NCBI RefSeq assembly: GCF_001704155.1
Contig: NZ_CP016294.1
Location: 3,283,501 to 3,347,500 of the forward strand
Length of the DNA stretch: 64,000 nt
Reading direction: 5' to 3'
Origin: Stenotrophomonas rhizophila
GTDB lineage: Bacteria > Pseudomonadota > Gammaproteobacteria > Xanthomonadales > Xanthomonadaceae
The notes beneath the pieces were generated by a model. It saw only the letters and a list, made by a program, of their open reading frames with translations. It was not told where the DNA came from and did no database searches. Every line of letters starts with the position of its first letter. Within the stretch, counting starts at the first letter, position 1. Shown here piece by piece: positions 24,431 through 47,149 of this stretch. The translations under genes and the position numbers were made by a program.

Positions 24431-26824
24431 ATGAACCGCAAGACCCGTACGCTTGCCGCCGCTGTTGCCGTCGCCCTCGGGGCCTCCGCCTTCAGTGTCG
24501 CCGCCCAGGACGCCCCTGCCCGCGCCACCGCCAACACCCTGGATACGGTCATCGTGACCGGCACCCGCGTGGCCGACCGCACCGTGGCCGAGTCGCAGTC
24601 GCCGATCGACATCATCACCCCCGAGGCGCTGCAGTCCACCGGCACCACCGAACTGGCCACCGCGCTGGCGCGTGCCCTGCCCTCGCTGAACTTTCCGCGC
24701 CCGGCGCTGACCGATGGCACCAGTGGCATCCGCCCGGCGCAGCTGCGCGGCCTGTCCCCGGACCAGGTACTGGTGCTGGTCAACGGCAAGCGCCGCCACA
24801 CCTCGGCCCAGATCAACGTCAACGGCAGCATTGGCCGCGGCTCGTCGGCGGTGGACATCAACGCCATTCCGATCGCCTCCATCGAGCGCGTCGAAGTGCT
24901 GCGCGACGGCGCCTCGGCGCAGTACGGCTCGGACGCCATCGCCGGCGTGATCAACATCGTGCTCAAGGGCTCCAGCGCGGGCGGCAGCCTGGCCCTGGAT
25001 GCCGGCCAGTACTCGGCCGGCGACGGCAACAAGTACCAGCTCTCCGGCGATACCGGCATCGGCTTCGCCGACGGCCGCGGCAGCGTGCACGTGGCCGGCC
25101 AGATCACCCAGCAGGACGAAAGCAACCGCGCCGGGCCCTACCAGGGCACCACGCCGAACACCGGCAACTTCCCCAGCGTGGGCCAGACCACCTTCGTGGT
25201 CGGCGACCCGCAGGTGGATGCCACCGCCGCCTCGGCCAATGCCAGCTTCCAGTTCAGCGACCACGTGTCGGCCTACGCCACCGCGCTGGCCAGCAACCGT
25301 GACATCACCTCGTTCGCGTTCTACCGCTCGCGCACCAACAGCGGCCAGGGCGCGCTGCTGGCGCAGACCTACCCGGACGGCTTCGTGCCGGAAATCAACC
25401 AGTATTCCAAGGACCGTTCGCTGGTGGCCGGCGTGAAGGGCGACACCGAAAGCGGCTGGACCTGGGACGTGAGCTACAATCACGGCACCAACAAGATCGA
25501 CTTCCACACCCGCAACAGCATCAACTACGCGTTGGGCGTGGACAGCCCGCGTTCGTTCTACGCCGGTGCGCTGGAATACACCCAGGACATCGGCAACGTA
25601 GACATCACCAAGCAGCTGGACTGGGGCCTGGCCTACCCGGTCACGCTGTCCTTCGGCGGTGAGTACCGCCGTGAGAAGTGGGAACAGAGCGCGGGCGAGC
25701 CCAATTCCTACTTCGGCACCGGTGCGCAGGGCTTCGGCGGTTTCACCCCGCTCAATGCCGTCGATGCCGACCGCGACAACTACGCCGTCTACGCCGGCCT
25801 GGAAGCGGACCTGACCGACAAGTTCTCGGCCGGCGTCACCGGCCGCTATGAGGATTACTCGGACTTCGGCGACAAGTTCTCCGGCAAGCTGTCGGCCCGC
25901 TACGCCTTCACCGACAAGGTCGCGCTACGTGCCACCGCCTCGTCCGGCTTCCGCGCCCCGTCGCTTGCCCAGCAGAGCTACCAGGCGGTGACCAGCACCA
26001 TCGTCAACGGCGTGTTTGTCGAACGCGGCACCTTCCCCACCACCAGCACCGCCGCGCAGGCGCTGGGCGCCAGCCCGCTGAAGGCCGAAAGCTCCACCTC
26101 CTACAGCGTGGGCCTGGTGCTGCAGCCGATCGACCGCCTCTACCTGACCGTGGATGCGTACCAGATCGACATCGACGACCGCATCATCCTGTCCACCAAC
26201 ATCACCACCAACGCTGCCACCAATGCGCTGCTGGCCGACCTGGGCCTCCCGCAAGTCACCGCGTTCTCCTACTTCACCAACGGCGTGGATACCCGCACCC
26301 GCGGCGTGGACGCGGTGTCCAGCTACACCATCCCGTTCAGTGCCAGCTCGCTGGAACTGACCGCGGCCTACAGCTACAACGACACCGAGGTGAAGAAGTT
26401 CATCGCCTCCCCGGCCGTGTTCGGCTCGCTGGGCCTGACCCAGTCGCTGATCGGCCGCGATGAAGTGGGCCGCATCGAAGACAGCTACCCGCGTGACAAG
26501 ACCATCCTGAGCGGCACCTGGCGTTCGGACCACTGGGACCTGAACCTGGCCGCCACCCGCTACGGCTCGTTCACCGTGCGCAATTCGGCGACCCCGACCC
26601 GCGACCAGACCTACGATGCCTCGTGGGTGCTCGATGCCTCGGTGGCCTACAAGCCCAGCGAGAACTGGACCCTGACCCTGGGTGCGGACAACCTGCTGGA
26701 CGAGTACCCCGACCGCACCGTGGACCTGCAGAACTCCACCTGGGGCATGCTCCCGTACAGCAACTACTCGCCGTACGGCTTCAATGGCGCTTACGTGTAC
26801 GGCCGCGTGACCTATAAGTGGTGA
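24431..26824 (+). CDS. TonB-dependent outer-membrane receptor
   Basis: Protein of 797 residues. Signal peptide MNRKTRTLAAAVAVALGASA is cleaved near SVAAQ. A TonB-box-like LDTVIVTGTR follows, then the plug domain (about 45-165, with LRGLSPDQVLVLVNGKRRH and QYGSDAIAGVINIVL) and a 22-strand barrel ending in an aromatic terminus VYGRVTYKW. The start at 24431 is the ATG that opens the signal peptide. Ligand unknown. Closely paralogous to the receptor at 44702. Confidence 0.92.
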   Translation: MNRKTRTLAAAVAVALGASAFSVAAQDAPARATANTLDTVIVTGTRVADRTVAESQSPIDIITPEALQSTGTTELATALARALPSLNFPRPALTDGTSGIRPAQLRGLSPDQVLVLVNGKRRHTSAQINVNGSIGRGSSAVDINAIPIASIERVEVLRDGASAQYGSDAIAGVINIVLKGSSAGGSLALDAGQYSAGDGNKYQLSGDTGIGFADGRGSVHVAGQITQQDESNRAGPYQGTTPNTGNFPSVGQTTFVVGDPQVDATAASANASFQFSDHVSAYATALASNRDITSFAFYRSRTNSGQGALLAQTYPDGFVPEINQYSKDRSLVAGVKGDTESGWTWDVSYNHGTNKIDFHTRNSINYALGVDSPRSFYAGALEYTQDIGNVDITKQLDWGLAYPVTLSFGGEYRREKWEQSAGEPNSYFGTGAQGFGGFTPLNAVDADRDNYAVYAGLEADLTDKFSAGVTGRYEDYSDFGDKFSGKLSARYAFTDKVALRATASSGFRAPSLAQQSYQAVTSTIVNGVFVERGTFPTTSTAAQALGASPLKAESSTSYSVGLVLQPIDRLYLTVDAYQIDIDDRIILSTNITTNAATNALLADLGLPQVTAFSYFTNGVDTRTRGVDAVSSYTIPFSASSLELTAAYSYNDTEVKKFIASPAVFGSLGLTQSLIGRDEVGRIEDSYPRDKTILSGTWRSDHWDLNLAATRYGSFTVRNSATPTRDQTYDASWVLDASVAYKPSENWTLTLGADNLLDEYPDRTVDLQNSTWGMLPYSNYSPYGFNGAYVYGRVTYKW

Positions 26825-43929: not shown

Positions 43930-43962
43930 CAAAACGACTTCACCTGCTGCGATCAAAACGAC
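43930..43962 (-). repeat. 24-bp-period direct repeat upstream of the small protein gene
   Basis: On the minus strand GTCGTTTTG occurs twice, separated by 15 bp, 84 bp before the GTG start at 43846. One copy overlaps the last codons of the DUF3574 gene. Direct repeats of this kind can be activator sites. Confidence 0.4.
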
Positions 43963-44429
43963 ACTTCCACCGCCTGCTGTGACCACAGCACCGACTGGTG
44001 CTTCGTCGCCTGCTTCCATGCCAGGCGGATCGCCTCGATATCCGCGCGCCGCTGCGGGGTGTTTTCGTGCAGCACCACCAGCACCTTGGTGCGCAGGCGA
44101 TTGGGCTCCTTGGCGCCGCGGAACAGCCACTGGCCGTAGGCATCGAACACGGTCAGGCCATCCGGGAAGCGCGGGGTGACCTGCTTGTCCAGGAAGTCGC
44201 GCCACTGCGCCTCGCTGATCGCATCGGTCTGCTCGCGATCAGAGGCACCGCTTTCCTCGCCCACGCCGAAGTACAGCTCGCTGCGCACCCAGTTGGTCGC
44301 CGCATCCGGACGGGCGGCATCGCCCTGGAGGGTGGCGGTGGCGGATTCGGGCGCGCGCGGGGTCGGGGTAGCGGTGGCGCAGCCGCCGAGGGCGAGCAAG
44401 GCGGCCAGGAGGAGGGGGGAAAGCTTCAT
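43953..44429 (-). CDS. DUF3574 domain lipoprotein
   Basis: Protein of 158 residues. The start at 44429 opens signal peptide MKLSPLLLAALLALGGCATA with lipobox LGGC (lipidation at Cys17). The body matches DUF3574: SELYFGVGEESG, SEAQWRDFLDKQVTPRFPDG, LTVFDAYGQWLFRG and RLRTKVLVVLHENT. Function of the domain is unknown. A longer in-frame start would disrupt the signal peptide. Confidence 0.85.
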   Translation of the reverse strand: MKLSPLLLAALLALGGCATATPTPRAPESATATLQGDAARPDAATNWVRSELYFGVGEESGASDREQTDAISEAQWRDFLDKQVTPRFPDGLTVFDAYGQWLFRGAKEPNRLRTKVLVVLHENTPQRRADIEAIRLAWKQATKHQSVLWSQQAVEVSF

Positions 44430-44487: not shown

Positions 44488-44641
44488 GCGGTGGACAGGG
44501 TGACGGATTCCGGCATCGCCGCAGATCACGTCCGGTTATGTGCTGATAGCCGTCGGTACTGGGACTTGCATCACAGGCCGGGTTCACGCCAAGATAATAT
44601 ATCGCTTCATCCGGATGGAACAATAGTTTCATCTGGGACCA

Positions 44642-44658
44642 GCCGGGCAACGCCCGGC
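44642..44658. repeat. Hairpin just before the poly-C tract
   Basis: Arms GCCGGGC and GCCCGGC around AAC. The stem has the AAC loop of the GTT-loop repeats but lacks the GTAG terminus. It is 7 bp from the run of 15 C. Confidence 0.6.
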
Positions 44659-44665
44659 ACCCCTG

Positions 44666-44680
44666 CCCCCCCCCCCCCCC
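44666..44680 (+). promoter_or_regulatory. Run of 15 C in the leader of the second TonB receptor
   Basis: Fifteen uninterrupted C between 44666 and 44680, ending 21 bp before the ATG at 44702. CTGGAG (44691-44696) is the likely ribosome site between them. Homopolymer runs this long in front of surface-protein genes are classic slippage sites. An AT-rich AAGATAATATAT at 44591-44602 is the likely -10 region upstream. Confidence 0.6.
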
Positions 44681-44701
44681 GTTCTTGCTGCTGGAGCCCG
44701 C

Positions 44702-47149
44702 ATGTCCCGTCCGTCCGCGTCGCGCCTTGGCCTTGCCATTGCCATGGTCCTGTCCTCTCCCCTTCTCGCCCGGGACCTCCATGCGCAGGACGCGCCCGCC
44801 TCCGCCACCACGCTGGACACGGTGATTGTCACCGGCACCCGCGCCATCGACCGCACCGTGCTCGAATCGACCTCGCCGGTGGACGTTCTCACCGCCGAGG
44901 ACATCCGCCGCGCCGGCGTGGTCAATGGCGAGCTGGGCAGCGCGCTGCAGGCGCTGCTGCCTTCGTTCAACTTCCCGCGCCAGTCCAACTCCGGCGGTGC
45001 CGACCACGTGCGCGCCGCCCAGCTGCGCGGGCTGTCGCCCGACCAGGTACTGGTGCTGGTGAACGGCAAGCGCCGCCACACCAGCGCGCTGGTGAACACC
45101 GACAGCAAGATCGGCAAAGGCACCACGCCGGTCGACTTCAACTCCATTCCGGTCAGCGCCATCAAGCGCATCGAAGTACTGCGCGACGGCGCCGGCGCGC
45201 TCTACGGCTCGGATGCGGTGGCCGGTGTGATCAACGTGATCCTGGATGACGCCCCGGAAGGCGGCGCCATCGAAGCCAGCTTCGGTGCCAACCACACCGA
45301 CCTCAAGCCGATCGACCGCACGCTCACCGATGGCCAGACCAGCTTCGCCAGCGCCAAGGTCGGCACCGCGCTGGGCGAAGACGGCGGCTTCCTGCGCGTG
45401 GGCCTGGAGCTGAAGAACCGCGAAGGCACCAACCGCGCCGGCTTCGACCAGATTCCGCCGTGGGACCAGACCGATGCGAACCTGGCCCTGCAGGGCCAGC
45501 GCAACTACGTGCTCGGCGATGGCAAGACCAAGGACCTCAACGCCTGGATCAACACCGAACTGCCGTTCGGTGAAACCTCGAAGTTCTACTTCTTCAGCAC
45601 CTTCAACCAGCGCGACACCGAAGGCGCCAACTACTTCCGTTACCCCGACAGCGACGCCAACTGGACCGAGCTGTACCCCAACGGCTACCGCCCGGTTTCC
45701 GAAGGCGAGAACCGCGACGTGCAGGCCGTGGCCGGAGCCAAGGGCCAGTGGGGCGAGTGGAACTACGACGCCAGCCTGGATTACGGCTTCAATGACTTCA
45801 CTTACCGCCTGCGCAACTCGCTCAACGCCTCGCTGGGCCCAGGCAGCCCGACCCGGTTCAAGACTGGCGATTACCGCAATGAACTGACCGTGGGCAACTT
45901 CGACCTCGGCCGGGTGTTCACCCAGGGCGACAACACCCACAGCCTCGGCCTGGGCCTGGAAGCGCGCCGCGACCACTTCCAGACTCGCCCCGGTGACCCC
46001 GCCAGCTACGCCGCCGGCCCCTACACCGACCGCCCGACTGGCTCGCAGGCCGGTGGTGGGCTGACCCCGCAGGACGCCACCTCGCTCCGCCGCGACGTGA
46101 CCAGTGCGTATGCCAGCCTGTCCAGCCAATTCGGCGAACACTTCTCCAGCGACCTGGCCGCACGCTACGAGCACAGCGACGATTACGGCGGCGAACTCAC
46201 CGGCAAGCTGGGCCTGCGCTATGAGTTCACCCCGGCGTTCGCACTGCGTGGCGCGATCTCCAACAACTTCCGCGCGCCGTCGCTGGCGCAGATCGGCTAT
46301 GAATCCACCTCCACCGGTTACAACGCCGCCGGCCAGCTCGTGCAGGGCCGCACGCTGTCGGTGAACAACCCGATCGCGCGCGGGCTGGGTGCCACCGACC
46401 TGAAGCCGGAAAAGTCGGTCAACACCAGCCTGGGCTTCACCAGCCGCATCGGCGACCACTTCGACCTGTCGCTGGACTTCTACCAGATCGATATCGATGA
46501 CCGCATCGCGCTGTCGGAGAGCATCACCGGCGATGCGCTCACCGATTACGTGCAGCAGCAGTTCGGCGTGGCCGGGCTGCAGAGCGCCAATTTCTTCGTC
46601 AACGCCGCCGATACCCGCACGCGCGGCGCCGAGCTGGTGACCAACTGGCGGCAAGGGCTGGGCGATGGGGAACTGGTGCTGACCGGCACCTACGCCTACA
46701 ACAAGACCACGTTGAAGAACGTGCTGGCCACGCCGGCGAGCCTGTTGGCGCTGGATCCGGACTACGTGCTGTTCGGCCTGGAAGAGACCAACACCCTGAC
46801 CGATGCCACGCCGCGCACGCGGGCGCAGCTGGCGGCGACCTGGGCCAATGACCGCTGGACGTTGAGCAGCCGCCTGAGTCGTTACGGCAGCGTGACCCGG
46901 GTGTTCAACTTCGGCGATGGGTATGTGCCGCGGCAGACCTACGGGGCCGAGTGGCAGCTGGATGCCGAGGTGGAGTACCGGATCACGCCGCAGTGGAGCG
47001 TGGCGCTGGGTGGGCAGAACCTGACCGACAATTATTCGGATCTGTCCAACGAGGACATCTATTACTTCGGCAATCTGCCGTATGACGTGCTGTCGCCGAT
47101 TGGCAGCAATGGTGCCTATTATTACGGGCGCGTTCGTTACACGTTCTGA
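44702..47149 (+). CDS. TonB-dependent outer-membrane receptor (second paralogue)
   Basis: Protein of 815 residues. Signal peptide MSRPSASRLGLAIAMVLSSP is cleaved near LHAQ. TonB-box-like LDTVIVTGTR precedes the plug (AAQLRGLSPDQVLVLVNGKR, LYGSDAVAGVINVIL) and a beta barrel that ends in aromatic YYYGRVRYTF. It shares the plug signature and much of the barrel with the receptor at 24431. Ligand unknown. The leader contains a poly-C tract, so expression may vary. Confidence 0.92.
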   Translation: MSRPSASRLGLAIAMVLSSPLLARDLHAQDAPASATTLDTVIVTGTRAIDRTVLESTSPVDVLTAEDIRRAGVVNGELGSALQALLPSFNFPRQSNSGGADHVRAAQLRGLSPDQVLVLVNGKRRHTSALVNTDSKIGKGTTPVDFNSIPVSAIKRIEVLRDGAGALYGSDAVAGVINVILDDAPEGGAIEASFGANHTDLKPIDRTLTDGQTSFASAKVGTALGEDGGFLRVGLELKNREGTNRAGFDQIPPWDQTDANLALQGQRNYVLGDGKTKDLNAWINTELPFGETSKFYFFSTFNQRDTEGANYFRYPDSDANWTELYPNGYRPVSEGENRDVQAVAGAKGQWGEWNYDASLDYGFNDFTYRLRNSLNASLGPGSPTRFKTGDYRNELTVGNFDLGRVFTQGDNTHSLGLGLEARRDHFQTRPGDPASYAAGPYTDRPTGSQAGGGLTPQDATSLRRDVTSAYASLSSQFGEHFSSDLAARYEHSDDYGGELTGKLGLRYEFTPAFALRGAISNNFRAPSLAQIGYESTSTGYNAAGQLVQGRTLSVNNPIARGLGATDLKPEKSVNTSLGFTSRIGDHFDLSLDFYQIDIDDRIALSESITGDALTDYVQQQFGVAGLQSANFFVNAADTRTRGAELVTNWRQGLGDGELVLTGTYAYNKTTLKNVLATPASLLALDPDYVLFGLEETNTLTDATPRTRAQLAATWANDRWTLSSRLSRYGSVTRVFNFGDGYVPRQTYGAEWQLDAEVEYRITPQWSVALGGQNLTDNYSDLSNEDIYYFGNLPYDVLSPIGSNGAYYYGRVRYTF

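Follow-up and report, generated by a model that had tools for sequence, protein, structure and literature searches.

A run of 15 C in the leader of a Stenotrophomonas rhizophila TonB-dependent receptor: probable slippage expansion of an old C-rich stretch

A homopolymer of 15 C lies in the leader of a TonB-dependent receptor gene of Stenotrophomonas rhizophila, within a window of 64,000 nucleotides (the whole stretch of DNA that was analysed). We consider the probable explanation to be a species-specific slippage expansion of an old C-rich leader under a predicted SamR operator, with a graded effect on the receptor at most. The original prediction had proposed that this tract, C15, is a candidate phase-variation switch. 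Part of that proposal stood: the tract has a length expected to slip, and the run at the same spot varies from 4 to 9 C in relatives. The other part did not. The usual ON/OFF routes are closed, since C15 lies outside the predicted promoter hexamers, the spacer between the Shine-Dalgarno sequence (SD) and the ATG, and any receptor-entering frame, and no ortholog with a long tract was found.

Results

Position and rarity of the C15 tract

The 15 C occupy positions 44666-44680 of the forward strand, 5' of the receptor ATG at 44702, so that 21 bases separate tract and ATG; GTTCTTGCTGCTGGAGCCCGC stands directly 3' of the run and is followed by the ATG. These coordinates, and the placement of the run between a hairpin and the ribosome site, agreed exactly with what had been claimed. 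From 5' to 3', the leader consists of a promoter-like site, an ATC-N10-GAT box, an 11-bp stem-loop, a REP palindrome, C15, GGAG and the ATG. The features of the region are as follows:

43953-44429, reverse strand: divergent upstream gene with a DUF3574 domain (domain search) and a lipoprotein-like N-terminus (sequence read by eye)
44570-44598, forward strand: sigma-70-like promoter ATCACA-17-GATAAT, 9 of 12 matches, predicted by consensus scan only
44599-44619, forward strand: conserved box ATATCGCTTCATCCGGATGGA (ATC-N10-GAT), a predicted SamR operator, from leader comparison and a published motif rule (PMC4239095)
44611-44636, forward strand: predicted 11-bp stem-loop CCGGATGGAAC-AATA-GTTTCATCTGG, overlapping the operator, from fold prediction only
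44642-44658, forward strand: palindrome of REP/SMAG type, GCCGGGC-AAC-GCCCGGC, whose side towards the tract bears a degenerate GTAG tag, assigned from its exact-stem copies
44666-44680, forward strand: homopolymer of 15 C, read as G15 on the template strand; no other C/G run in the genome is as long
44693-44696, forward strand: Shine-Dalgarno-like GGAG, 5 nt before the ATG, read from the sequence
44702-47149, forward strand: TonB-dependent receptor of 815 aa with Plug and beta-barrel (domain search)

Within the window, the runner-up C run and the longest G run each have a length of 6. The genome, a single contig of 4,198,652 bp, contains only five C/G runs of at least 9, with lengths of 9, 9, 9, 11 and 15. 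According to a first-order Markov estimate, approximately 0.0003 C runs of at least 15 would be expected per window and approximately 0.04 per genome on both strands. This genome-wide rarity, together with the low expectation, sets C15 apart as a genuine outlier of the assembly. The absence of such a run at the paralogous receptor near 24431 had also been stated, and indeed none was found upstream of that gene. When the neighbour genes of the other long C/G runs in this genome were inspected, no tie to surface genes appeared. The second longest C run (11, at 3351442-3351452) is intergenic, lies about 4 kb past the end of the window and does not precede an evident surface-protein gene.

A homopolymer of 15 C is long enough to gain and lose C's by slippage at high frequency, the slippage rate itself being taken from established knowledge. 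On this general knowledge of such tracts, instability of C15 at the present day is very likely.

C runs in orthologous leaders

Leaders were gathered from 91 genomes of the genus, with one genome per species, and from 80 named loci, yielding 69 distinct leader sequences. A variable-gap pattern was too narrow for the genus-wide search, and a box search (ATC-N10-GAT) was used instead. The longest C run was 4 in 7 of the distinct leaders, 5 in 34, 6 in 18, 7 in 4, 8 in 4 and 9 in 1, and 15 in the focal leader only. None of the other 68 distinct leaders exceeded 9 C, and the long tract is not maintained in relatives. Judged by the 69 distinct leader sequences, the length of 15 C is private to this genome. 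The comparison of tract length across related genomes therefore speaks on both sides of the proposed switch, with runs at the site that vary between 4 and 9 C but no long tract in any ortholog.

A C run of at least 5 occurred in 62 of the 69 leaders, which are not independent sequences, compared with 2.7% of the background 60-mers in the window. On the strength of this difference, a C-rich stretch at this spot of the leader is, as far as the compared sequences tell, an old feature of the genus. The 29 distinct S. maltophilia-type leaders, of the form ATCT(C)nTTCC, allowed the run to be followed between near-identical flanks: n was 5 in 20 of them and 4, 6, 7, 8 or 9 in the rest. Length drift from 4 to 9 between such flanks is the pattern that slippage would give, in this case between species. 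In the Xanthomonas orthologs, the box was mostly kept and the C runs were only 3-6 long. One contig in the collection (L048) bears the title Bacillus subtilis SK7B5 but contains this gene of Stenotrophomonas; the record is either mislabelled or contaminated.

We also surveyed C/G runs of at least 11 in other genomes of the genus, setting contig-end runs aside. The internal runs sampled were mostly intergenic and beside unrelated genes; one example is a 15-C run between a reductase-like gene and another gene. Since long runs elsewhere lie mostly by unrelated genes, the picture favours a sporadic, species-specific expansion over selection for a contingency locus. Very long C/G runs (35 and 52 bases, in L120 and L124) and hundreds of poly-C/G 11-mers occur in some genomes of the genus, and poly-C/G runs stand at contig ends in G009, G070 and G107. 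The very long runs, some of them at contig ends, are probably sequencing artefacts, which calls for caution in homopolymer surveys.

The hairpin beside the tract is a dispersed repeat

The exact stem of GCCGGGC-AAC-GCCCGGC was found in 37 copies in the genome and in none in a reversed-sequence control, and many of the 37 copies carry a CTAC/GTAG tag. A REP family with this GTAG/CTAC tag is known in S. maltophilia as SMAG (PMC3733652). The focal hairpin reads GGGGTGCCGGGC, with the tag lost; the corresponding hairpins in two close relatives (L004 and L006) keep CTAC. Given the many copies of its stem, the hairpin beside C15 is, by its sequence, a copy of a dispersed REP/SMAG-type repeat that landed in the leader.

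The idea that the adjacent hairpin could promote slippage found no support. In other species, runs of 7-9 C occur in leaders that lack the hairpin, and those with 8-9 C are without it throughout; 15 other REP loci that were sampled had no long run nearby. Both observations exclude the hairpin as a necessary cause of the C run, whose growth does not require it. In another clade (leaders L008-L011 and L042-L046), a forward-oriented GTAG palindrome occupies the same place in the leader; the sequences suggest repeated REP insertion at one leader site.

The usual ON/OFF routes are probably closed

The predicted promoter hexamers end at 44598, and the SD at 44693 lies 3' of the tract. A single ATG occurs in the leader upstream of the receptor start, and its frame (M-E-Q-stop) ends after three codons, which excludes frameshift switching via an upstream ORF; among the leader frames checked, none enters the receptor from upstream of C15. 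With the promoter as predicted, C15 does not lie between -35 and -10, as a FetA-type tract would. On present evidence, it belongs to leader RNA that is not translated and lies clear of the reading frame and of the promoter and SD-ATG spacers. We infer that a FetA-like or frameshift ON/OFF switch at C15 is unlikely.

A further route would be control of SD accessibility by the length of the C run. In an RNA fold comparison that took natural leaders only, SD pairing showed no correlation with C-run length (Spearman -0.05, p 0.68), and on this basis the route was rejected. The C-rich stretch was predicted to be mostly unpaired. A scan of the leader revealed no intrinsic terminator at the REP hairpin, and an Rfam search of the leader gave no element, its sole match (SNORD99) being a chance one below threshold. 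No partner RNA for the C-tract was found, and we know of no C-tract-binding sRNA for this leader. A search of the leader sequence in viral contigs returned no matches. The 11-bp inverted repeat at 44611-44636 is strong, and the right half of the operator forms its left arm; the repeat is shared by this genome and the relatives closest to it (GGAACAATAGTTTC) and differs in other species.

A predicted SamR-type operator upstream of the receptor

The best-conserved part of the receptor leader is the ATC-N10-GAT box. It follows the published motif rule of SamR, which is predicted to be a methionine/SAM regulator in Xanthomonadales (Leyn et al. 2014, PMC4239095). In this genome, the box also precedes metX-metB (L164, approximately 2510-2540); these gene names come from reading the translations, and a Pfam scan of the first gene gave alpha/beta hydrolase only. 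A second TonB receptor, elsewhere in the genome, is preceded by two weaker tandem boxes (L163, 1501-1548). Directly upstream of the split metH1-metH2 lies a gene that fuses an ArsR-type HTH with a methyltransferase (L252:505-1431), with an ATC-N10-GAT motif approximately 28 bp upstream of its start. Judged by its domains, this gene beside metH is likely to be SamR. Overall, the box is conserved upstream of the receptor and common to met genes, and the main control of the receptor is probably exerted by SamR, itself a predicted regulator.

Discussion

The explanation that we favour can be laid out as a series of steps. A TonB-dependent receptor with a predicted SamR (methionine/SAM) operator would long have had a C-rich stretch in its 5' untranslated leader, and replication slippage would then have expanded this stretch to 15 C in this species, a length at which frequent gain and loss of C's is to be expected. 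Since C15 stands 3' of the promoter-like site, 5' of the Shine-Dalgarno sequence and outside receptor-entering frames, such changes should not act through promoter spacing or frameshift to turn the receptor on and off. At most, they would alter an unstructured RNA spacer between the REP hairpin and the ribosome site, leading to a gradual change of expression; in terms of this model, a graded length effect is the most that may be expected. C15 is thus most likely a hypermutable but incidental microsatellite derived from an ancestral C-rich leader. Against this explanation, a second, tract-dependent promoter is also conceivable, the promoter being known by consensus scan. Moreover, pure noise would not yield so consistent a C-rich stretch throughout the genus, which suggests some function of the leader that 15 C might affect.

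We weighed several other readings against it. C15 could mark a true phase-variable (contingency) locus, in which tract length acts as a rheostat and is kept by selection for heterogeneity of a surface receptor. The gene does encode a surface receptor, the tract is very long and the longest in the genome, and the C-over-G content of the leader, taken over 60 nt, ranks among the top 0.15% of the window. There is also precedent for graded control by 5'-UTR homopolymers in tlpB/RepG of Helicobacter (PMC8295292). Possible means for such a rheostat are the structure of the leader RNA, a partner RNA, Rho loading and a G-quadruplex in the G15 template strand. Nevertheless, no tract above 9 was seen in other species, among the five longest runs of this genome there is no pattern of placement ahead of surface genes, the long runs of relatives are mostly by unrelated genes, and predicted SD accessibility is unaffected, so that we regard a contingency locus as unlikely, if not negligibly so. 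Still less probable, in our judgment, is a C-tract rheostat under SamR control, in which stochastic changes of length would determine how high the expression of a methionine-regulated receptor can rise. Its mechanism would be independent of frame and promoter spacing and would act through the RNA spacer, Rho loading or a G-quadruplex of the template strand. A stretch of G15 is about the minimum length for a G-quadruplex.

The C-rich leader might itself be functional, for Rho loading, as a ribosome standby/S1 site or as an RNA target, with 15 C as a tolerated variant. A C-rich, G-poor stretch does persist at this place in those 62 of the 69 leaders despite drift of the exact sequence, and the stretch is predicted to be mostly unpaired. 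However, it is not conserved in the Xanthomonas orthologs despite their mostly kept box, and no terminator, Rfam element or partner RNA was found; we give this reading a small probability. Smaller again is the chance that, in a genuine run, an error of sequencing or assembly produced the exact length or a part of it. Long-read assemblies are at their weakest in the length of homopolymers, and in many drafts of the genus the contig ends show artefactual-looking poly-C/G. Yet this genome is a single contig with only two runs of at least 11 in 4.2 Mb and no general excess of long homopolymers, and the tract lies mid-chromosome with conserved flanks intact on both sides.

If the tract were shown to vary and to tune expression, the genus would gain a homopolymer contingency locus, in this case in a 5'-UTR, where we found none described; in the open-access literature, no description of homopolymer phase variation in Stenotrophomonas was found. 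As it stands, C15 exemplifies the drift of a C-rich leader towards a long microsatellite. Of more lasting value, as a side result, is the presence of SamR-type operators at the focal receptor and at the second TonB receptor, which suggest that TonB receptors serve methionine- or B12-related uptake in Xanthomonadaceae.

Comparison with known systems

The closest likeness is to fetA/frpB of Neisseria, where a poly-C of 10-14 stands in front of a TonB-dependent outer-membrane receptor and where the gonococcal fetA tract ranges over C10-C14 from one strain to another (PMC5320596). By contrast, the fetA tract lies between -35 and -10 and alters promoter spacing, whereas C15 lies approximately 67 bp downstream of the -10-like hexamer. 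Strain-to-strain tract variation has been shown for fetA, whereas the focal C15 is known from one genome. The tlpB/hp0102 system of Helicobacter pylori resembles C15 in having a long homopolymer in the 5'-UTR before the coding start, with graded action only (PMC8295292). That homopolymer is a G-repeat that works with the sRNA RepG, and its strain variation and effect have been shown; C15 consists of C and is described from sequence alone.

With the SMAG or GTAG-REP palindromes, the focal hairpin shares the stem of the 36 other copies, its tag being partly lost. It differs only in its position, in a 5' leader beside a homopolymer; the other sampled copies are not beside long runs. As for the SamR regulon, the focal genome is alike in carrying ATC-N10-GAT at the receptor promoter and at metX-metB, and an ArsR-methyltransferase gene by metH1-metH2. 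The targets named in the main text of the SamR paper (Leyn et al. 2014, PMC4239095) are biosynthetic genes only, and TonB receptors are not mentioned there. Therefore, the membership of TonB receptors in the SamR regulon, to which the boxes in this genome point, may be an unreported extension of that regulon to outer-membrane uptake.
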